Shown here in pieces: positions 24,303-37,062 of a stretch of DNA of 38,093 bases. Each line of letters starts with the position of its first letter. The stretch's first letter is position 1. A program made the position numbers and the translations under genes. This DNA is from Candidatus Aegiribacteria sp. GTDB taxonomy: Bacteria > Fermentibacterota > Fermentibacteria > Fermentibacterales > JCC-6. The notes beneath the pieces are model-generated. The model was not told where the DNA came from, did not search any database, and saw only the letters and a program-made list of their open reading frames with translations. The DNA lies in assembly GCA_030594645.1 (NCBI GenBank), contig JAUVEU010000024.1:1-38093 (forward strand). Direction: 5' to 3'.

Positions 24303-24674
24303 TTGAATGTAATCGGGGTTGGAATAGATATTGTCGATCTTGATACTTTCAGGACTCGGCTTGACGATGGTCTGATTGAGGAACTGTTTATGCCGGAAGA
24401 AGTTAAGTACTGTTCAGGCAGAGCCAGGCCATGGGAAAGCTATGCCGCCAGATTCGCAGCAAAGGAAGCAACTTTCAAGGCGCTCAGTGCAGGGCTCTCT
24501 CATGGACTTCGCTGGAAGCATGTAGAAATTGTGAAGGATAAATCCGGAGCGGTTGCCGTCCGATTAACAGACAAAGCGCTTAAGCAGGCTCAAGAGAAGG
24601 AAGTAAAGGAGATACACCTTTCTATCAGTCATACGAAGTTGAATGCAATAGCTGTCGTGGTGATGGAAGGCTGA
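24303..24674 (+). CDS. acpS: Holo-[acyl-carrier-protein] synthase
   Basis: 123-residue phosphopantetheinyl transferase that moves the 4'-phosphopantetheine of CoA onto a Ser of acyl carrier proteins. Motifs: GVGIDIVDLDTF at the N-terminus, ESYAARFAAKEATFKAL in the middle, and HLSISHTKLNAIAVVV at the end; these contain the Mg2+/CoA-binding Asp and Glu. The TTG at 24303 is chosen because the family begins a few residues before GIGID and GGGAGAA lies 8 bases upstream; an ATG at 24258 would add 15 hydrophobic residues. The next two genes are an acyl-activating enzyme and an ACP, a probable substrate. Confidence 0.9.
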   Translation: MNVIGVGIDIVDLDTFRTRLDDGLIEELFMPEEVKYCSGRARPWESYAARFAAKEATFKALSAGLSHGLRWKHVEIVKDKSGAVAVRLTDKALKQAQEKEVKEIHLSISHTKLNAIAVVVMEG

Positions 24675-24721
24675 TCAAAACCCTGAAAAACAGATGTCAG
24701 AATGGTTGGAAGGAGCGGACT

Positions 24722-26470
24722 TTGAGCAATATTGAATCATATGAAAAAGCAAAAAATGACTTCAGCTGGGACATTGCCAGAGATGTATTGAATTGGAAAG
24801 ATGGTGAACTCCTTAACATTGGAGCCATGTGTTCCGATCGTATTTGCGACAGGGGAGATGCTGATAAGACAGCTCTCATCTGGGAGGGATTTGGAGACAG
24901 AAAAGAAAAATACACATTTAATGATCTTAGAATATACTCAAACGGATTCGCACAATTCCTTAAAGCACAGGGAATCGAGCCGGGAGACAGAGTCTGTATC
25001 TTTATGGACAAAATTCCCAGTCTTTATTTCTCATTTCTTGGCATTCTCAAACTTGGAGCTATTGCTCAACCGCTTTTTTCCGCGTTCGGTGATGAATCTC
25101 TGGAGGTCAGGCTGGCCAGCGCCAATACAAAAGCCATTCTGACAACCCGTAAGCATGTCAGGAAGGTCAGAAAGATAAAGGACAAACTTCCTGAACTGAA
25201 GAACATCATTGTTGTTGAAGGTGATCCGGCTAAGCTGAAGGAAGGCGAAGTTTTCTTTGATGTGGAGAGCGCTCCGAAAATTGAAGAATTCGACGTTTTT
25301 AAATCAGATTCCGAATCGCCATCCGTTCTTCATTATACATCAGGCACAACAGGGCAGCCCAAGGGTGCTCTTCATGTTCACAGCTCTGTCTGGGGACAGG
25401 CTCTCACCACAAGCTGGGTCCTTGATCTCAAGGATGATGATATTTACTGGTGCACAGCAGACCCGGGCTGGGTAACAGGCACAAGTTACGGCATCATCGG
25501 CCCCTGGGTTCTTGGAACCACACAGTGTGTTCTTGATTCCGGTTTTACATCTTCAAGATGGTATCAATTCATTCAGGATAATAAAATTTCTGTCTGGTAT
25601 TCGGCGCCAACTGCTATCAGAGCGCTTATGAAAGATGGCAATGAACTCGTTGGTAAATTTGACCTCTCTACATTGAGGCATCTTGCATCAGTGGGAGAAC
25701 CACTTAATGCTGAAGCCGTCATCTGGAGCGGTGAAGTATTCAACGGACTGCAGTTCCATGATACGTTCTGGCAGACTGAAACTGGCGCAATGATGATTAC
25801 TAACTTTCCCGGTATGGAGATACGCCCCGGATCCATGGGAATGCCTTTCCCGGGGATATCGGCTTCTGTTCTTGATCTTGAATCTCATGAACCGGTTACG
25901 GAACCAGGCAAAGTCGGTCTGATAGCATTCCGACCCGGATGGCCTTCCATGTTCCGAAGTTATTGGAAGCAGCCGGATATATACAGAAGCAAGTTCGTTG
26001 GAGCCACAGAAGACGCTATGCCTGATGAACTTAGAATGAATCCTGAGCTCTGGTATGTTTCAGGAGACAGAGCAAGCATTGACAAAGATGGCTACTACTG
26101 GTTTGTGGGAAGGGATGACGATGTCATTAACACAGGCGGTCATCTGGTTGGACCTTTTGAGATAGAATCAGCTCTGGTGGAGCATGAAGCTATTGCTGAA
26201 GCAGCTGCCGTGGGCAAACCTGATGAAGTTAATATGGAGGTTGTAAAGGCTTTCGTTACTCTGAAGCCAGGGTACGAACCTTCCGATGATCTTGAACTGG
26301 ATATCATGAATTTTATCAGAAAAAGGCTTTCTCCGCTTGCGATGCCGCAGGAGATCGAATACATGGACAGACTCCCTAAAACACGCTCAGGCAAGATAGT
26401 AAGAAGGTATTTGAAGGCAATTGAATGGGGCGAAGACGTTGGTGACATATCAAGTCTTTCCGACGAATAA
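24722..26470 (+). CDS. acsA: Acetyl-CoA synthetase-like AMP-forming ligase
   Basis: 582-residue ANL-family enzyme that would activate acetate with ATP to acetyl-AMP and then pass it to CoA (or, given the neighbour, to an ACP). Visible motifs: YTSGTTGQPKGALHVH (P-loop), DTFWQTETGA, GDRASIDKDGYYWFVGRDDD (hinge), and KTRSGKIVRR with the catalytic and acetylatable Lys. The Trp before Gln-Thr-Glu, which limits known acetyl-CoA synthetases to short acyl groups, is retained. The N-terminus is shorter than in E. coli Acs and resembles the ~570-residue Bacillus AcsA type. Start TTG at 24722 is supported by GGAAGGAG six bases upstream. The acp gene follows after 23 bases. Confidence 0.9.
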   Translation: MSNIESYEKAKNDFSWDIARDVLNWKDGELLNIGAMCSDRICDRGDADKTALIWEGFGDRKEKYTFNDLRIYSNGFAQFLKAQGIEPGDRVCIFMDKIPSLYFSFLGILKLGAIAQPLFSAFGDESLEVRLASANTKAILTTRKHVRKVRKIKDKLPELKNIIVVEGDPAKLKEGEVFFDVESAPKIEEFDVFKSDSESPSVLHYTSGTTGQPKGALHVHSSVWGQALTTSWVLDLKDDDIYWCTADPGWVTGTSYGIIGPWVLGTTQCVLDSGFTSSRWYQFIQDNKISVWYSAPTAIRALMKDGNELVGKFDLSTLRHLASVGEPLNAEAVIWSGEVFNGLQFHDTFWQTETGAMMITNFPGMEIRPGSMGMPFPGISASVLDLESHEPVTEPGKVGLIAFRPGWPSMFRSYWKQPDIYRSKFVGATEDAMPDELRMNPELWYVSGDRASIDKDGYYWFVGRDDDVINTGGHLVGPFEIESALVEHEAIAEAAAVGKPDEVNMEVVKAFVTLKPGYEPSDDLELDIMNFIRKRLSPLAMPQEIEYMDRLPKTRSGKIVRRYLKAIEWGEDVGDISSLSDE

Positions 26471-26493
26471 AAGCAGAACTGAAAGGATCTGAA

Positions 26494-26742
26494 ATGGAAG
26501 AGATGAAAAGTGCCGTTCTGGAGTACATAGTCGATGAATACCTTGATGAAGATGATGAGGATGAAGTATCCTTCGATTCTCCTCTGATATCCTCTGGTAT
26601 AGTCGACAGTTTTTCCATGGTGTCTCTCAAAAGATTTGTTGAGAACAAGTACAGTATCAAACTTCCTGATGAGGAAGCGACTCCTGAAGCGTTTGATACA
26701 GTCAACTCCATATGTGATCTCATAAAAAAGCATCTGGGATAG
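26494..26742 (+). CDS. Discrete acyl carrier protein
   Basis: 82-residue ACP. The attachment Ser39 lies in GIVDSFSMVSL, where the usual DSL is DSF. The N-terminal half is very acidic (EYLDEDDEDEVSFDS), as in free-standing ACPs. It is too divergent from fatty-acid AcpP around the Ser to be the housekeeping ACP, and resembles ACPs devoted to specialised pathways. It sits between the acetate-activating enzyme and KBL, in the same direction and with short gaps, and downstream of holo-ACP synthase. What acyl group it carries is unknown; acetyl is the obvious candidate from context. Confidence 0.88.
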   Translation: MEEMKSAVLEYIVDEYLDEDDEDEVSFDSPLISSGIVDSFSMVSLKRFVENKYSIKLPDEEATPEAFDTVNSICDLIKKHLG

Positions 26743-26757
26743 CGGAGGAGGTGACAA

Positions 26758-28005
26758 ATGGCTTTTTCAAACGATACTAGAAACCTGTTCACGAATGAGA
26801 TTGAGAAGATCAAGGATGATGGTCTCTACAAGGAGAAACGTTTCATCTGTTCCGAACAGGATGCTGAGATCGAGGTTGAATACCCCGAGGGTGCTGCCCA
26901 CAAGAAGGTCTTGAATTTCTGCGCGAATAATTACCTAGGGCTTTCCAGCCATCCTGACGTTATCAAGGCAGCCCACGAAGGGCTTGATACACGCGGTTAC
27001 GGGATGAGTTCTGTGAGATTCATCTGCGGTACACAGGATATCCACAGAGAACTGCAGGACAAGGTGTCCGCATTCCTGGGCATGGAGGATACTCTTCTTT
27101 TCCCCTCATGTATGGATGCCAACTCCGGTGTATTCGAGGCAATACTATGCCAGGATGATGTTATCATAGCTGACAGGCTGATTCATGCATCACTGGTGGA
27201 TGGTATCCGTCTATGTTCAGCGGAGTACGATACATTCAAGCATATGAACATGAAACATCTCAGGAAGAAGCTTGAACTCCACCAGAATAAAAGAACAAGA
27301 CTGGTGGTTACGGATGGTGTTTTCTCGATGGACGGTGATCTGGCTCCTCTTGATGAAATGGTTGCTCTCTGCAACGAATATGACGCGATGCTTCTGGTTG
27401 ATGATTCACACGCATCGGGATTCATAGGAAAAACAGGACGGGGAACTCACGAGCATTATGACGTAATAGACGAGATTGATCTTATCACCACAACTTTCGG
27501 CAAGGGGCTGGGAGGCGCTTCCGGAGGGTGTGTATCCGGCCGCAGAGAGCTGATTGAATTGTGCCGTCAGAAGGCGCGTCCATACCTCTTCAGCAATTCT
27601 CTCGCACCCCCGATAGTCAATGGATCGATCAAGGTAATAGATCTGATAACCGCCTCTACAGAGCGCAGGGATAAACTTGAATGGAATACAGACTACTTCA
27701 GGAAAGGTATGGAAGAAGCTGGTCTCAACATCAGGCCGGGAGAGACTCCAATCGTTCCTGTAATGCTGTACAATGCCAAGCTGGCTAATGATATGGCTCG
27801 AGATATGTATGCAGAAGGCATCTATGTGATCGGGTTCTGTTTTCCTGTCGTTCCTGCCGGCGCGGCAAGAATTCGTGTTCAGCTTTCAGCAGCTCACGAG
27901 AAGGCACACCTCGACAAATGCGTTGAGGCCTTCAAAAAGACCGGTGATAAATATGGAATACTAGGTCTTGGCAAGAATGAGATAATCGAGAAATACGGCA
28001 GATAG
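26758..28005 (+). CDS. kbl: Glycine C-acetyltransferase (2-amino-3-ketobutyrate CoA ligase)
   Basis: 415-residue PLP enzyme of the alpha-oxoamine synthase family. KBL interconverts glycine plus acetyl-CoA with 2-amino-3-oxobutyrate plus CoA, normally as the second step of threonine breakdown. From memory it is close to E. coli KBL along its whole length: NFCANNYLGL, GMSSVRFICGTQ, TDGVFSMDG, VDDSHASGFIG, TTTFGKGLGGASGG (PLP Lys249) and RPYLFSNSLAPP. That closeness argues against BioF or serine palmitoyltransferase. No threonine dehydrogenase gene is in the window. GGAGGAGGTGAC precedes the ATG. A partial copy with an internal deletion lies at 31109-31471. Confidence 0.93.
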   Translation: MAFSNDTRNLFTNEIEKIKDDGLYKEKRFICSEQDAEIEVEYPEGAAHKKVLNFCANNYLGLSSHPDVIKAAHEGLDTRGYGMSSVRFICGTQDIHRELQDKVSAFLGMEDTLLFPSCMDANSGVFEAILCQDDVIIADRLIHASLVDGIRLCSAEYDTFKHMNMKHLRKKLELHQNKRTRLVVTDGVFSMDGDLAPLDEMVALCNEYDAMLLVDDSHASGFIGKTGRGTHEHYDVIDEIDLITTTFGKGLGGASGGCVSGRRELIELCRQKARPYLFSNSLAPPIVNGSIKVIDLITASTERRDKLEWNTDYFRKGMEEAGLNIRPGETPIVPVMLYNAKLANDMARDMYAEGIYVIGFCFPVVPAGAARIRVQLSAAHEKAHLDKCVEAFKKTGDKYGILGLGKNEIIEKYGR

Positions 28006-28017
28006 TCAAAGCCTGAC

Positions 28018-28044
28018 GGGGACACGTACACACTGCGTGTCCCC
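28018..28044. repeat. GGGGACA-type hairpin (REP-like), copy 2
   Basis: Perfect 9-bp stem GGGGACACG (28018-28026) / CGTGTCCCC (28036-28044) with a 9-base loop, 12 bases after the kbl stop. No T-tract follows. It shares its outer sequence with the hairpin at 8888-8923. Confidence 0.55.
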
Positions 28045-28075: not shown

Positions 28076-28104
28076 TTGACATAGCGCATCCCCTGTGCTA
28101 TCGT
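28076..28104 (+). promoter_or_regulatory. Sigma70-like promoter for the DUF485-actP genes
   Basis: TTGACA (28076-28081), a 17-base spacer, and TATCGT (28099-28104). Transcription would start near 28111, leaving about 120 bases of leader before the DUF485 start. Confidence 0.6.
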
Positions 28105-28110
28105 GCGCCC

Positions 28111-28232
28111 TTATAAGTGCGACCGGCAGGGGAGACCACCCGGACCGCCATCCTGGCGGGGTTGTTTTAATGTAGCGATAGTCGGATCCCGTCTGCCGAT
28201 TCATGAATAACATATTTGAACAGGAGAGCATT
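28111..28232 (+). promoter_or_regulatory. Structured 5' leader with a terminator-like hairpin (candidate attenuator or riboswitch)
   Basis: The leader contains CCGCCA-TCC-TGGCGG (28145-28159) followed by GGTTGTTTT, which looks like an intrinsic terminator placed before the coding region. An outer pairing CGGCAG (28124-28129) with CTGCCG (28193-28198) is possible, and CCGG at 28123-28126 can pair with CCGG at 28140-28143. The competing pairings suggest regulated read-through. I do not recognise a known riboswitch class. AGGAG at 28222-28226 is the ribosome binding site of the next gene. Confidence 0.45.
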
Positions 28233-28535
28233 ATGGACCATGGACCGGCCGTTGAATATCATGAGTGCGAAGAACTATTGAAGTACAAGCAGAAAGCAGG
28301 CTTGCGGCTCTTCTTCGTATACTCAGCCATATACGGGATATTCGTGCTTCTTAACACCGTTTTCCCGAGAATGATGGAATCCGTCGTTTTCTTCGGTCTG
28401 AATCTCGCCATCGTCTACGGTATCGGTTTGATCGTAGTCGCTATCATCCTCGGTCTGTTCTACAACCATCAGTGCACGAAGATGGAGAGGCGTCTGGACA
28501 CCAGTGGCAGTAAGACCCTGAGAGGTTCAGAATGA
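28233..28535 (+). CDS. DUF485 small membrane protein (YjcH-like)
   Basis: 100-residue protein with two hydrophobic helices, FFVYSAIYGIFVLLNTVF and LNLAIVYGIGLIVVAIILGL followed by FYNHQC. This is the DUF485 pattern found directly upstream of actP-type acetate symporters in many bacteria. Its role is not established; a partner or regulator of the symporter is likely from the constant pairing. The ATG at 28233 is preferred over 28203 because AGGAGAG sits 6-7 bases before it. The stop overlaps actP by 4 bases. Confidence 0.88.
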   Translation: MDHGPAVEYHECEELLKYKQKAGLRLFFVYSAIYGIFVLLNTVFPRMMESVVFFGLNLAIVYGIGLIVVAIILGLFYNHQCTKMERRLDTSGSKTLRGSE

Positions 28536-30448
28536 TATACACGGCCTCTCCTCTCGCGGTCGGGATATTCTTTGCGGTCGTAGCGGCTGTACTGGGAATC
28601 TCCTTCTACTTCGGCAGGAAGACTACATCTGCCAGGGGATACTTCGCTGCAGGAGGGACAATCCACTGGTCCGTGAACGGCATAGCTTTCGCGGGTGACT
28701 ACCTCTCCGCAGCCTCCTTCCTCGGAATCTGCGGCATGATTGCCTTCTCGGGTTTCGACGGCTTCCTCTACTCCATTGGCTACCTGGCAGGATGGGTCGT
28801 GGCTCTTTTTGTTGTTGCTGAGCCACTCAAGCGAATGGGCAAATTCACCTTCGCCGATGCCCTGGATTCCAAGTTCAACTCCAAGGGAATTCGCCTCATG
28901 GCAGCCATCAGCACGCTTGTAGTCTCAATCTTCTACCTCATACCCCAGATGGTCGGCGCGGGTGCACTGGTTACCCCTCTTCTTGGACTCCCGCACTGGG
29001 TGGGTGTAACTCTCGTGGGCGGGATAGTCATCTTCATAGTGACCACTGCCGGTATGAAGTCCACCACTTACGTGCAGTTCCTCAAGGGAGCTCTCCTTAT
29101 AGTTTTCTCTGTTATTCTGGTCTTCCTTGTAGTTGACAGGGGTGTTCAGGACATACCCTACGAGGGTTACCATGACTTTATCACCCTCCAGGCTGAGCTG
29201 ACCGACGGTTCAGTCACATCCCTGAGCGACCCGGCCTATACCATTAAGGGTGAATACACGGAGAACGGTCTTCATTTCGTTAAGCTGGAGAAGGACGGCA
29301 TCAGCAACTGGTGGAACCTGGAAGAGACCGGCACACTCACAGAAGCTCTCAGCATCGTCACCCTGTCCGATGGGACCGTCCTTTACAACGGCGCTCCAAG
29401 GGAGGATCAGCTTTTCTATCCAGTTGGTAACATGCACAGGATAACAGTCGACGGTGAACAGGTCGAAGAGGCCGGCAGCCTTAACATCATCAGTTTTCTG
29501 GCTGTAATTCAGGAGAGCGAAGTAGTCAGGTTTATAGCCGACGTATTCATATCAGGTGACGAGAGGGTCCGCATCTGGTATCAGAAGGTTACCCCTGGCA
29601 ATGAGATACTCAGTCCCGGTCTTAAGTTCCACATAGACGAGGGTTCCAGCTTCGCAGAAAAGATGAACTTCATATCACTGATGCTTGCCCTGTTCTTCGG
29701 CACCGCTGCGCTGCCGCATGTCCTGATAAGGTACTACACGGTTCCTACACCATCAGCTGCAAGGAAATCCACCATTGTTGCGATAGCTGCAATAGGCTTC
29801 TTTTACATTCTCACTCTCTACATGGGACTGGGTGCCATGATAAGCGGGGTACTGGACGTGGAGAGTTCCAATATGTCCGCTCCACTTCTTGCACAGTCGT
29901 TCGGCACTCTCATGTTCGCTATAATCTCCGCCATAGCCTTTGCGACCGTACTGGGAACCGTCAGTGGTCTCATTGTCGCCTCTTCGGGCGCAGTAGCCCA
30001 TGACTTCATAGATAATTTCCTTGGCAAGAAGTTCAGCGACCACAAGAAAGTCATCATCGGCAAGTTCGCTGCTGTGGGGACCGGCCTCATCGCCATTCTT
30101 CTCGGCATCGCCTTCAAGGGCATGAACGTGGCCTACCTGGTGGGGTTAGCCTTCGCAATAGCAGCTTCCGCCAACCTGCCCTCGATACTGTTGCTGCTCT
30201 TCTGGAAGAAGACCACCGCGAAGGGAATAACTGCATCCATAACCGCTGGTATCATCTCAGCGGTCGGAATCATCATGTTATCCCCAAGCATGTTCACCAG
30301 ATACGGACTGGAAGCCTCGTCGGCACCGTTCCCTCTGGACAATCCGGGTATTATCTCCATCCCGCTGAGCTTTGCTGTGCTCATCATTGTATCTCTGATG
30401 ACGCAGGATAAGAGGCAGCCCTTTGAAGTAAAGGCATCGACCAGCTGA
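28532..30448 (+). CDS. actP: ActP-like sodium:acetate/solute symporter with large extracytoplasmic insertion
   Basis: 638-residue member of the sodium:solute symporter family, ActP branch, probably importing acetate or another short monocarboxylate with Na+ or H+. Recognisable segments: NGIAFAGDYLSAASFLGICG, DALDSKFNSKGIRLMAAIST, FFGTAALPHVLIRYYTVP and SGAVAHDFIDNF. About 150 residues (roughly 205-350) between hydrophobic segments form a polar, beta-rich insertion (for example YTIKGEYTENGLHFVKLEKD); canonical ActP is ~550 residues and lacks it. Codons are visibly more GC-ending than in the flanking genes, suggesting a different history. It forms an operon with the DUF485 gene upstream. Confidence 0.85.
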   Translation: MIYTASPLAVGIFFAVVAAVLGISFYFGRKTTSARGYFAAGGTIHWSVNGIAFAGDYLSAASFLGICGMIAFSGFDGFLYSIGYLAGWVVALFVVAEPLKRMGKFTFADALDSKFNSKGIRLMAAISTLVVSIFYLIPQMVGAGALVTPLLGLPHWVGVTLVGGIVIFIVTTAGMKSTTYVQFLKGALLIVFSVILVFLVVDRGVQDIPYEGYHDFITLQAELTDGSVTSLSDPAYTIKGEYTENGLHFVKLEKDGISNWWNLEETGTLTEALSIVTLSDGTVLYNGAPREDQLFYPVGNMHRITVDGEQVEEAGSLNIISFLAVIQESEVVRFIADVFISGDERVRIWYQKVTPGNEILSPGLKFHIDEGSSFAEKMNFISLMLALFFGTAALPHVLIRYYTVPTPSAARKSTIVAIAAIGFFYILTLYMGLGAMISGVLDVESSNMSAPLLAQSFGTLMFAIISAIAFATVLGTVSGLIVASSGAVAHDFIDNFLGKKFSDHKKVIIGKFAAVGTGLIAILLGIAFKGMNVAYLVGLAFAIAASANLPSILLLLFWKKTTAKGITASITAGIISAVGIIMLSPSMFTRYGLEASSAPFPLDNPGIISIPLSFAVLIIVSLMTQDKRQPFEVKASTS

Positions 30449-30518: not shown

Positions 30519-31022
30519 ATGAATCCAAGTCATGTTCGCAGAGTGATCCTGAACGGGAAGAGCGGAAAACCCTCTATTGCGAGGAGTTTCATCAAGGCGC
30601 TGAATGATGAACGGATAATTACCGAAAAGGGCGGATTCCTGTTCAAGGTGTTTGCTGCAGGTGACAGACTCATGCTGGGTGTTACCCCTTATTTCATTGA
30701 TAGCAGAAGGACCTACCACTACGACACGCAATTGCCGGGAGAGGACGAATTTACACTTATCGGGAGTGTTACACCAAACGGGATATTCGAAATCCTCTTC
30801 AAGCCGCTTTCGATGGAGCTTTCACCTGAGGATATTCGCAAATACACTGATACCTATGTGATGCTTGCCCGATTTCTCCTGGAGAACGGTTACTCGGGGC
30901 CGGGAAGGCTGGACCCTGTGACCGTCAGTATGATCCTGGAGGCGGGACTTTTCAACCCGGCACCGGAGGATCTGGCCGGGCTTGCGCATGGAGTCTGTTC
31001 GTTTGACGAACAGGATAGTTAG
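30519..31022 (+). CDS. Hypothetical soluble protein downstream of actP
   Basis: About 167 residues with no signal peptide and no membrane segment. It is predicted mixed alpha/beta: an N-terminal basic helix (RRVILNGKSGKPSIARSFIKALND), strands through FLFKVFAAGDRLMLGVTPYF, and a helical C-terminal half (SPEDIRKYTDTYVMLARFLLENGYSG). I do not recognise the family. A TTG directly before the ATG (30516) is an alternative start. It follows actP by 70 bases in the same direction and shares its GC-richer codon choice, so it probably belongs to the same transferred block. Confidence 0.65.
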   Translation: MNPSHVRRVILNGKSGKPSIARSFIKALNDERIITEKGGFLFKVFAAGDRLMLGVTPYFIDSRRTYHYDTQLPGEDEFTLIGSVTPNGIFEILFKPLSMELSPEDIRKYTDTYVMLARFLLENGYSGPGRLDPVTVSMILEAGLFNPAPEDLAGLAHGVCSFDEQDS

Positions 31023-31098: not shown

Positions 31099-31436
31099 GA
31101 GGTGACAAATGGCTTTTTCAAACGATACTAGAAACCTGTTCGCGAATGAGATTGAGAAGATCAAGGATGATGGTCTCTACAAGGAGAAACGTTTCATCTG
31201 TTCCGAACAGGATGCTGAGATCGAGGTTGAATACCCCGAGGGTGCTGCCCACAAGAAGGTCTTGAATTTCTGCGCGAACAATTACCTTGGGCTTTCCAGC
31301 CATCCCGATGTTATCAAGGCAGCCCACGAAGGGCTTGATACACGCGGTTACGGTATGAGTTCTGTGAGATTCATCTGCGGAACACAGGATATCCACAGAG
31401 AACTGTAGGACAAGGTATCCGCATTCCTGGGTATGG
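31099..31436 (+). repeat. 338-bp near-identical direct repeat of 26748-27085
   Basis: The 5' part of kbl including its ribosome binding site occurs twice in the same orientation, 4351 bp apart. I count about ten base differences. The repeats enclose the rest of kbl, the hairpin, promoter, leader, DUF485, actP and the hypothetical gene. Homologous recombination between them would excise that segment. Confidence 0.9.
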
Positions 31437-31471
31437 GCAAGAACGAGATAATCGAGAAATACGGTAACTAA
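31109..31471 (+). pseudogene. Degenerate second copy of kbl: 5' end joined in frame to the last codons, with a premature stop
   Basis: The first 109 codons match kbl (26758-28005) almost exactly. The frame then jumps to the last dozen codons (GKNEIIEKYG) and stops at TAA 31469-31471. Relative to kbl, 885 bp (295 codons) are missing and the reading frame is kept. Codon 100 is TAG where kbl has CAG, so only 99 residues can be made. The ribosome binding site GAGGTGAC is shared. Without the PLP Lys region it cannot be an active enzyme. Most base differences from kbl are at silent third positions. Confidence 0.92.
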
Positions 31472-31488
31472 TCTTATCTGGAGGATGA

Positions 31489-31711
31489 ATGAAAGACGCT
31501 CTTGCCAATCCTGCCCCGCTGGGACTTATGGGTTTCGGGATGACAACCGTCCTGCTCAACATTCACAACGCAGGATTTTTTGAGAACGATATCATGATTC
31601 TGGCCATGGGCATCTTCTACGGGGGTCTTGCACAGGTCATTGCCGGAATAATGGAGTTCAAAAAAGGAAACACATTCGGAACAACCGCTTTTACAAGTTT
31701 TGGCCTTTTCA
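31489..31711 (+). pseudogene. Truncated SatP/YaaH-family acetate transporter (5' fragment)
   Basis: The first 74 residues are a clear match to the GPR1/FUN34/YaaH (SatP) acetate uptake family: [20 protein letters not shown], then [20 protein letters not shown], then [17 protein letters not shown]. At that point (about 31711) similarity stops, although the frame stays open to 31842 over the opposite-strand zinc-ribbon gene. A full SatP has about 190 residues and six helices; this has two to three. A good GGAGG ribosome binding site remains. It follows the kbl remnant by 17 bases. Confidence 0.85.
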
Positions 31712-31742
31712 CAGGACTTGAAGGTATTCCGCTCCATTTTGA

Positions 31743-32465
31743 TCAGAAAACATGCCTGATTATAACAACAGTTACGATGATCAACGGCGCCAGAAGCAAT
31801 ACCCAACCTACAAGAGCTACAAAGAGACCAGGTGTTTTCTGAGTTATCGCTGGACGAGGAAATGTAAGAAACCCCGTATAATTTCCCATCGCATCCGAGA
31901 ACCAAATACATGCAAGTGGGAGGACCAAAAAAGCCACCATTTTCAAAATGATCTGAGAGTTTCCAAAGGCTATCGCTGAAGCAAGATAAAGCAATGCAAC
32001 AATGCCGGAAAGCAGTCGTGATTTCAACAGTCGGAAGATAGCGTTTTGCTTGCCTCTTTTGTGTAATTCATTTGCTAGAGATTTCACATATTTGTTTACA
32101 GCAGGATTTCCTTTGAGATACTGAGCTACATCCTCAAGTTCTCCTTGATCAGCCCAAATGCCGTGACACGAGGGACACTTGTTCAGAAACACGTTGGAAT
32201 CGTAACAATAATTGAATACTTTTGTTAATATGCCGCATCTTGGGCAGAATATGTTCGATTCCTTTTCATCTGCTGGCTGTAATCCGGGGTGAAACGCAGC
32301 TGCTGGTTTCTGCTTCTGAATAAAGTCCTTCTGGATCATGTCATTCGCTACAGCACTCAGTTCTTCAGAATCGAACCAGATACCTCCGCATTGAGGACAT
32401 ACGTCTATGGTTTGACAGCCATATGAATTCGAGGCAAGTTCAGCACTGCATACAGGACATTTCAT
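31743..32465 (-). CDS. Membrane protein with two N-terminal zinc ribbons (zf-TFIIB type)
   Basis: 240 residues. Two zinc-ribbon modules lead: CPVC...[14 protein letters not shown] (~4-36) and CPRC...[14 protein letters not shown] (~74-113), the CxxCxGxW(F/A)D(x)xEL pattern of the zf-TFIIB family. After a basic linker, hydrophobic segments around 145-185 and 215-237 anchor it in the membrane. The role is unknown; such proteins are common and mostly uncharacterised. GGAGTGAG precedes the ATG. Its 3' end lies about 30 bases from the break in the SatP fragment, marking the edge of the acetate block. Confidence 0.8.
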
Positions 32466-35757: not shown

Positions 35758-37062
35758 ATGCCTCAAACCGGGAATGTTCTTGTTATTGGTGCCGGAATCG
35801 CCGGGATGAAGGCGAGTCTGATGCTCGCCGGAGCTTCCAATAAGGTTTACCTTGTGGAGAAACTCCCCATCATCGGTGGAAAGGTCATCAAGAACGAGGA
35901 AAGTTTTCCCAATCTCGAGTGCTCCACCTGCATGGTGGCTCCCATACAGCAGGATATACTGCAGAATCCGAACATTGAAACCCTTACATACAGCAATGTG
36001 GAAAAGATCGAGGGCAGTGCGGGGGATTTCAGTGTTGTTATCAGAAAAAGAGCCAGATATGTCAGTCTGACCGACTGCATCGGATGCGGGATGTGCTATG
36101 AACCCTGTCCTGTATCCCTGAAGAACGAATGGGAAGAAAACCTGATTGACAGGAAAGCCATTTATGTTCCCTGTTCCGGATCGCTGCCGAATGTTCCTGT
36201 AATTGATTCCGAACACTGTCTGAAGCTTAATGGCAAGGAGGAGTGCAACCTCTGTGTGGAATCCTGCGCATTTGAGGCGATTAACCTTGACGACAGCGAT
36301 GAAATTATTGAAATAAAGGTCGGAGCTATAATACTGGCAACCGGATCAGCAACTTTTGATCTTTCAACTCTGCCGAACCTTGGATACGGCACTTTACCCG
36401 GAGTATATGCTCCGATGGAATTTGAGAGACTGTTCGCGTCAAACGGGCCTACCCTTGGCGAGATAACCCTTCGCGGATCAGAGAAGGTTCCGGAAAGCAT
36501 AGCGGTGATTCATTGTGCCGGACGGAGGGAGCAGAAGTACTGTTCTTCTGTCTGCTGCATGTACTCATTCAAATTCGCAAGATTTCTGAGACACAAGATT
36601 CCGTCAGCCCGTGTTTTCAATATCTATTCGGACATCTGTGTTCCGGGAAAGAGTTACCAGAGTTTTTACAGGAGCGTTGAGGGGACAGATACCGAGATGC
36701 TCTACACTTCATCTATCGGAGACGTGTCGGTTTCGGAGAGCGGATCGGGACTGAAGGTAAGCTATTTGGATGCTGCAGGATCCCTGCAGGAGCTGAACGT
36801 GGATATGGTGATACTTGCAGCCGCTCTTGTTCCCGACCCTGATGTCGCTCCACTAGCTGCAGTTGCTGGAGTTGATCTTGACCCGCGTGGTTTCGTTATG
36901 ACAGTGCTCGACGGAAGCGGATCAATGGAAACCTCAAGAAAAGGGATTTTTGTTGCCGGTACCGCGGAAGGCCCGAAGGATATTCAGAATTCCGTAATAC
37001 AGGCGGAATCCGCAGCCGGACAGGTCATGGATATCGTAAAATCCAAGGTCTCTAGCTTATGA
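35758..37062 (+). CDS. hdrA: HdrA-like FAD/iron-sulfur subunit (heterodisulfide reductase A family)
   Basis: 434-residue flavoprotein, the electron-bifurcating type of subunit in Hdr complexes. In order: FAD-binding VIGAGIAGMKASL, VEKLPIIGG, the cluster-binding NLECSTCMVAP, a ferredoxin-like CIGCGMCYEPCP, a second Cys group CLKLNGKEECNLCVESC, and CAGRREQKYCSSVCC. The length and make-up are close to QmoA/short HdrA proteins of bacteria. With MvhD upstream and another HdrA downstream it should shuttle electrons between ferredoxin, a disulfide or quinone-like acceptor and NADH or H2; which of these applies is open. It overlaps the next gene by 4 bases. Confidence 0.9.
   Translation: MPQTGNVLVIGAGIAGMKASLMLAGASNKVYLVEKLPIIGGKVIKNEESFPNLECSTCMVAPIQQDILQNPNIETLTYSNVEKIEGSAGDFSVVIRKRARYVSLTDCIGCGMCYEPCPVSLKNEWEENLIDRKAIYVPCSGSLPNVPVIDSEHCLKLNGKEECNLCVESCAFEAINLDDSDEIIEIKVGAIILATGSATFDLSTLPNLGYGTLPGVYAPMEFERLFASNGPTLGEITLRGSEKVPESIAVIHCAGRREQKYCSSVCCMYSFKFARFLRHKIPSARVFNIYSDICVPGKSYQSFYRSVEGTDTEMLYTSSIGDVSVSESGSGLKVSYLDAAGSLQELNVDMVILAAALVPDPDVAPLAAVAGVDLDPRGFVMTVLDGSGSMETSRKGIFVAGTAEGPKDIQNSVIQAESAAGQVMDIVKSKVSSL

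Follow-up and report, generated by a model that had tools for sequence, protein, structure and literature searches.

The closest precedent for the gene run described here is the system of serine palmitoyltransferase (SPT), AcpR and AasR in Rhodobacteria, in which, according to the available part of the source, the AasR ligase acylates an acyl carrier protein (ACP) and not coenzyme A (CoA) (PMC9386255). The run consists of acpS, an acetate-type ligase gene, acp and kbl and lies in a 38,093-bp stretch of Candidatus Aegiribacteria sp. (assembly GCA_030594645.1, contig JAUVEU010000024.1, positions 1 to 38,093), hereafter the window. As far as the Rhodobacteria system is described there, it likewise has a pyridoxal phosphate (PLP)-dependent oxoamine synthase, a specialised ACP and an adenylating ligase in the same genomes; however, it joins fatty acids and serine for sphingolipids, while in our module the ligase is of the acetate type and the synthase of the KBL type, and a second holo-ACP synthase (AcpS) and a threonine dehydrogenase are added. 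SulA, the cysteate acyl-ACP transferase of Alistipes, is also an oxoamine synthase that takes acyl-ACP as the donor and acyl-CoA poorly, but it belongs to an SPT-like subgroup in a lipid pathway, and the part of the source available mentions no dedicated ligase (PMC9304779). The pathway of L-threonine 3-dehydrogenase (TDH) and KBL comprises the same set of reactions as proposed below, and the accessible part of the source states that it can run towards threonine in vitro, citing Marcus and Dekker 1993 for threonine formation by the two enzymes (PMC3439479).

A literature search of partial coverage (titles and the beginnings of abstracts) returned no description of an ACP–kbl module and no paper on Fermentibacteria with acetate and threonine. 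The kbl-tdh pair of E. coli is CoA-dependent and, unlike the module, comes without ACP, AcpS or ligase. A short acyl-ACP is used by an oxoamine synthase domain in the SxtA-type condensation of acetyl- or propionyl-ACP with arginine; SxtA, however, is a single fused protein of toxin biosynthesis.

The four genes form a real and widely conserved combination of known parts. We read them, with a probability of about 0.6, as a conserved module that would keep acetyl on a private ACP for the glycine/2-amino-3-ketobutyrate reaction of an ACP-linked type of KBL (K1), tied to threonine. The ACP-tethered acetyl-glycine pathway suggested by the first-pass annotation, made from the sequence of the window by itself, is thereby partly supported.

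Gene order and co-occurrence

Gene calls in the window were based on open reading frames (ORFs), their translations and family profile scores; coordinates are window positions.

24303–24674, + strand: acpS, holo-ACP synthase, TTG start (PF01648, 65.6 bits, cut-off 25)
24722–26470, + strand: AcsA-type AMP-forming acetate ligase, TTG start (NF003313, 735.7 bits, cut-off 729)
26494–26742, + strand: acp, acyl carrier protein (PF00550, 22.1 against a cut-off of 20.8, weak yet above it)
26758–28005, + strand: kbl of the K1 type, glycine C-acetyltransferase with a C-terminal extension (TIGR01822, 563.9 against a cut-off of 493)

In agreement with the first-pass annotation, all four genes are on the plus strand, separated by 47, 23 and 15 bp; a purine-rich stretch, judged by eye, precedes each of the four starts. 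The discrete ACP with DSF at its attachment site was likewise found: Ser39 lies within VDSFSM.

Scanning genomes with an ACP alignment of 11 rows (28 invariant columns) yielded 508 loci encoding an ACP relative. Synteny was counted in the best 80 of the 508 loci, a set biased to close relatives; by title, these come from metagenome-assembled genomes (MAGs) apart from one or at most two, so single lineage labels may be wrong. In this set, the closest named relatives were Candidatus Aegiribacteria/Fermentibacteria MAGs, and the titles named Fermentibacteria, Bacteroidetes, Zixibacteria, Acidobacteria, Delongbacteria, Krumholzibacteria, Gemmatimonadetes, Armatimonadetes, Aminicenantes, Fibrobacter, Ignavibacterium and others. 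A KBL gene lay 3' of acp on the same strand in 79/80 loci (gap 12–289 bp, median 23); the exception, L127, had the ligase and ACP with no K1 adjoining. The ligase gene was within 1.5 kb upstream of acp in 63 of the 72 loci whose upstream sequence exceeded 2.2 kb (68/80 overall). Both adjacencies, synthase with ACP (79/80) and ligase with ACP (63/72), are shared with the SPT/AcpR/AasR kind. Upstream acpS was present in 47 of the 65 loci with more than 2.9 kb of upstream sequence (52/80 overall). The order, whose conservation the first-pass annotation had named as one check of its proposal, is thus strongly kept across many named lineages, so the run is not a product of chance. Acetate-type transporters (SatP, ActP-like) are recurring neighbours of the module, SatP being found somewhere in 14/80 loci. 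A second, non-K1 KBL was encoded within the fetched flanks of 16/80 loci, and the order KBL2-acpS-acp-K1 without the ligase was found in genomes G066, G173 and G174. Apparent ligase–ACP fusions in G206, G207, G208 and G178 (frames of 688, 679, 688 and 945 aa, respectively) were rejected, as these are alternative reading frames across the ligase gene where the DNA is GC-rich.

We analyzed the co-occurrence of the components in a set of 99 relatives, counting ACPs as family members at 54% identity or more; G069 (33% ACP match) and G209 (33–35%) were kept out of these and the following counts. The same 38/99 genomes, and no others, encoded the ACP and the K1-type KBL; 29 of these carried another, ordinary KBL in addition to K1, and 16 further genomes had only other KBLs at 1e-90. 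ACP and K1 were found in the same 11/39 genomes of the phylum of G048, and in the phylum of G066 the family ACP was encoded in 25/80 genomes with K1 adjoining all 25 (counted from the ACP side only). In all 72 different ACP-bearing genomes sampled, K1 was located near the ACP on the same contig, including G106, where K1 and ACP are on two contigs with a 391-bp overlap at 99%. The cluster-type ligase (64% identity or more) was encoded in 36/38 ACP genomes and elsewhere only as a fragment in the ACP-less G032; the best ligase outside the cluster type was 48% identical.

At least two AcpS were found in 16 of 17 ACP-bearing genomes of the same genus (the cluster AcpS of G036 being absent from the list counted), against one AcpS in 5/5 ACP-less kin of the order, which makes the cluster AcpS of this group an additional copy; in the genome of the window, a further AcpS is encoded at C144. 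G044 yielded a single AcpS, whose gene shares 4 bp with that of TDH and has SatP upstream (a SatP-TDH-AcpS run).

K1 and the cluster ligase

Type-specific residues were identified by comparing 78 K1 proteins with 19 ordinary KBLs and include F115, P116, M119, R140, D158, T159, H167, H175, C269, A273 and N339. The rows of this comparison, of the tree and of the 71-row ligase alignment were selected with motifs, and some of these motifs include the compared residues. K1 of L065, L072 and L081 was excluded from the comparison and the tree, the sequences being terminally out of frame or truncated by the contig edge. Because of the motif selection we recounted in plain tblastn alignments, leaving out two KBL rows without the needed positions and taking only ligase rows with at least 50% identity. 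R140 and V/I142 were each present in 82/82 ACP-adjacent KBLs, and C269 in 81/82; R140 occurred in 0/28 others, while N142 and L269 were found in 28/28 non-adjacent KBLs. N339 was not exclusive to K1, being present in 9/28 other KBLs. The recount agreed with the motif-picked counts except for W350 of the ligase.

K1 forms one clade and is a separate type of KBL: a quick tree with 108 rows placed all 78 K1 rows on one side of a branch with an SH-aLRT value of 94, just under the tool's mark of 95. The enzyme of the window, described in the first-pass annotation as a canonical KBL, does exceed the cut-off of the glycine C-acetyltransferase model, but the ACP-linked form stands apart as a clade and is not merely canonical. 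K249 and H143, which we take to be the PLP lysine and the stacking histidine, respectively, were invariant in 25/25 K1 proteins. The C-terminal extension was placed in a helix at 406–413 in the predicted K1 structure (pLDDT 85.2). As a sufficient mark of K1 the extension was rejected, five ACP-less genomes having extended KBLs without the K1 residues. The KBLs of L146–L150 had a C-terminal extension, ordinary residues and a TDH gene 1.5–3.6 kb away, with no family ACP found at these loci; they are possible intermediates between ordinary KBL and K1.

W350 is present in the ligase of the window, as the first-pass annotation noted, and in 72/73 aligned cluster ligases in the motif-free recount (F in one); the earlier count of 71/71 was so by construction, the rows having been picked by a motif that includes this Trp. 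By comparison with Salmonella Acs, W350 is presumably the Trp of the acetate pocket. L475 was found in 72/72 cluster ligases with a residue at that position and Arg in 7/7 other homologues; we take this position to be the Arg of the GHR/GER motif conserved in Acs. K144 (70/71) and H145 (71/71) also differ from 7/7 other homologues. K144, H145 and L475 mark a private ligase subfamily, without telling CoA from ACP.

Link to threonine, direction and rival explanations

The first-pass annotation suggested looking for an adjacent dehydrogenase, and a recurring neighbour of the module in related loci is TDH of the short-chain dehydrogenase/reductase (SDR) type, encoded near 13/80 loci; there is none in the window. 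TDH of L080 matched the solved L-threonine 3-dehydrogenases PDB 7ol1 (E 4.9e-131) and 2yy7 (8.7e-110). Operon-like arrangements on one strand were TDH-acpS-ligase-acp-kbl in L096 and L124 and TDH-ligase-acp-kbl in L080; at eight other loci TDH was downstream of kbl on the opposite strand. The genome of the window encodes TDH at C19:3-917, and 39/60 relatives have TDH at 1e-60.

In the proposed pathway, the cluster AcpS would attach phosphopantetheine to the ACP, and the AMP-forming ligase would load acetate onto holo-ACP. K1 would then catalyze, via PLP, the reversible reaction of acetyl-ACP and glycine to 2-amino-3-ketobutyrate and holo-ACP, and SDR-type TDH would join 2-amino-3-ketobutyrate with threonine. 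Next to the observed genes, order, co-occurrence, clade and type-specific residues, we infer acetyl-ACP as the intermediate, the private use of the carrier and the direction of the reaction. The ordinary KBL that accompanies K1 in the same genomes is presumably CoA-dependent; since the two coexist in 29/38, the two directions of a single reaction would be kept apart by their carriers, CoA and ACP, a split that would parallel fatty-acid breakdown and synthesis. The module is, in this reading, the dedicated-ACP oxoamine-synthase arrangement moved from lipids to threonine/glycine/acetate metabolism.

The direction from acetate and glycine to 2-amino-3-ketobutyrate and threonine is slightly favoured, with roughly an even chance, because of the AMP-forming ligase, the uptake-type symporter next to the run, the coexisting ordinary KBL and the lack of thrB over the cut-off in the order of the window. 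The direction from threonine to glycine and acetate is somewhat unlikely. ThrC exceeded the cut-off in 17/40 genomes, including that of the window, and ThrB in 2/40; no thrB over the cut-off was found in any of the 30 searched genomes of the order. The gap in threonine synthesis weakly supports a role in synthesis; as proof it was rejected, since five ACP-less kin of the order (G037–G041) have neither thrB nor thrC over the cut-off, and 3/14 control genomes also miss that of thrB. The fullest version of the proposal is ACP-dependent, ATP-driven threonine synthesis from acetate and glycine via 2-amino-3-ketobutyrate, kept apart from CoA-dependent breakdown in the same cell, in at least 10 phyla by MAG labels and with several members lacking a recognisable homoserine kinase or threonine synthase. 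Taken as a whole, this version is rather unlikely.

Several observations weigh against the reading of a private acetyl carrier in threonine metabolism. We failed to find a cluster-type ligase at 1e-100 in G066 (100% complete) or G023 despite the presence of ACP and K1, and none was encoded within the stretches read of G173 and G174; such absence in some lineages also counts against synthesis. The cluster ligase is the only strong Acs-type match in the genome of the window and could therefore be its general acetyl-CoA synthetase. R150 (70/71), A295 (71/71) and R533 (70/71, one gap) of the ligases align with R194, A357 and R584 of Salmonella Acs, and the position aligned with its R191 is variable (Arg in 16/71); we take these four residues to be CoA contacts, and the conservation of three of them means that CoA may be the real acceptor. 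Both the ligase and KBL pass the cut-offs of hidden Markov models (HMMs) of CoA enzymes. TDH of the window's genome is on another contig than the window, where an ordinary KBL, not that of the window, is encoded about 6.4 kb from it. ThrC in this genome argues against synthesis, as a threonine-making role is not forced, and so does the instability of 2-amino-3-ketobutyrate stated in the available part of the source (PMC3439479). Moreover, five genomes of the phylum of G048 have an ACP–K1 gap of about 700 bp: a nitroreductase-family gene, left unexplained by the model, was located between ACP and K1 in L153 (6617–7249) and L155 (7339–7932), and similar gaps were present in G124, G133 and G134.

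Among the alternatives, the most probable is catabolic: threonine would be cleaved to glycine and acetyl-ACP, the ligase would run in reverse to yield ATP and acetate, and SatP would export the acetate. This is one direction of our preferred explanation, and their odds overlap. TDH near 13/80 loci and SatP within 14/80 are consistent with it, as are the lineage of the window, which we take to be fermentative, and the reversible AMP-forming Acs of Syntrophus. However, AMP-forming ligases usually run towards the thioester, the ligase is absent in some lineages, and in the genome of the window the ordinary KBL on the contig of TDH could already serve breakdown. The catabolic explanation is rather unlikely.

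An explanation by CoA only, with the ligase and KBL as ordinary acetyl-CoA enzymes and the ACP merely co-transcribed for another step, is unlikely. It draws on the CoA-enzyme HMM cut-offs, on the three of four presumed CoA-contact positions kept and on the cluster ligase being the only strong Acs-type ligase of the window's genome, but it is opposed by the constant proximity of K1 to ACP in the 72 sampled genomes, by K1 residues that track the ACP and by the ordinary KBL coexisting in 29/38.

It is quite improbable that the ACP bears a longer or different acyl group that K1 turns into an amino-ketone lipid or a small metabolite. The ACP-using oxoamine synthases SPT and SulA do make lipids, according to the parts of the sources available (PMC9386255, PMC9304779), and the best NCBIfam match of the ACP was the ornithine-lipid ACP (60.8, under the cut-off of 130). 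K1, however, scores as glycine C-acetyltransferase, far under the SPT model NF047600 (328.1 against a cut-off of 640), W350 is kept in nearly all cluster ligases, and TDH is a neighbour. Least probable is that K1 and ordinary KBL act as a pair, either in a heteromer or by a coupling that shuttles acetyl between the carriers CoA and ACP: this is compatible with the private-carrier explanation and fits the second KBL in 16/80 flanks and the ligase-less KBL2-acpS-acp-K1 order, but for most loci the flanks, several of them short, showed no second KBL, and K1 keeps its presumably catalytic Lys249 and His143.

If acetyl is indeed kept on a private ACP, the principle of a private carrier, so far reported, in the parts of the sources available, for oxoamine synthases of lipid metabolism (PMC9386255, PMC9304779), would reach central amino-acid metabolism. 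Part of the annotated “glycine C-acetyltransferase” in uncultured bacteria would use a different carrier and possibly a different direction. The location of acetate transporters next to threonine enzymes, in Fermentibacterota as in other groups, would gain an explanation open to test, and seemingly auxotrophic genomes would gain a candidate route to threonine. The private-carrier principle is also found in oxoamine synthases of secondary metabolism.

Other features of the window

The following features are located downstream of kbl:

28018–28044, + strand: GC-rich hairpin just 3' of kbl (−20.8 kcal/mol, z −2.98, 1/200 shuffles as good)
28203–28535, + strand: small DUF485 protein, adjoining the symporter (PF04341)
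28532–30448, + strand: MctC/ActP-like sodium:monocarboxylate symporter (PF00474; NF058657, 451 bits, under the cut-off of 670)
31099–31473, + strand: decayed kbl copy with 97% identity to kbl over the first 338 bp, a missing interior, a premature in-frame stop and the 3' end kept
31489–31842, + strand: 5' part of a SatP/YaaH-type acetate transporter gene (PF01184 over residues 3–75)

The hairpin has no T run right after it and is a possible transcript end. A promoter-like site, by match to the consensus only, was found at 28076–28104 upstream of the DUF485 gene, which is probably on a transcript of its own. In the close relative G017, satP directly follows kbl, so the symporter block in the window looks inserted. 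The product of the satP fragment departs from its family after about residue 75, and the broken gene may reflect a rearrangement or an assembly error. An ORF of 167 aa (30519–31022) without a Pfam match is kept beside the symporter in L069, L071, L073 and L079. Further downstream, an ORF of 434 aa (35758–37062) resembles part of the heterodisulfide reductase HdrA2 (NF040770, 368 bits, under the cut-off of 1100).

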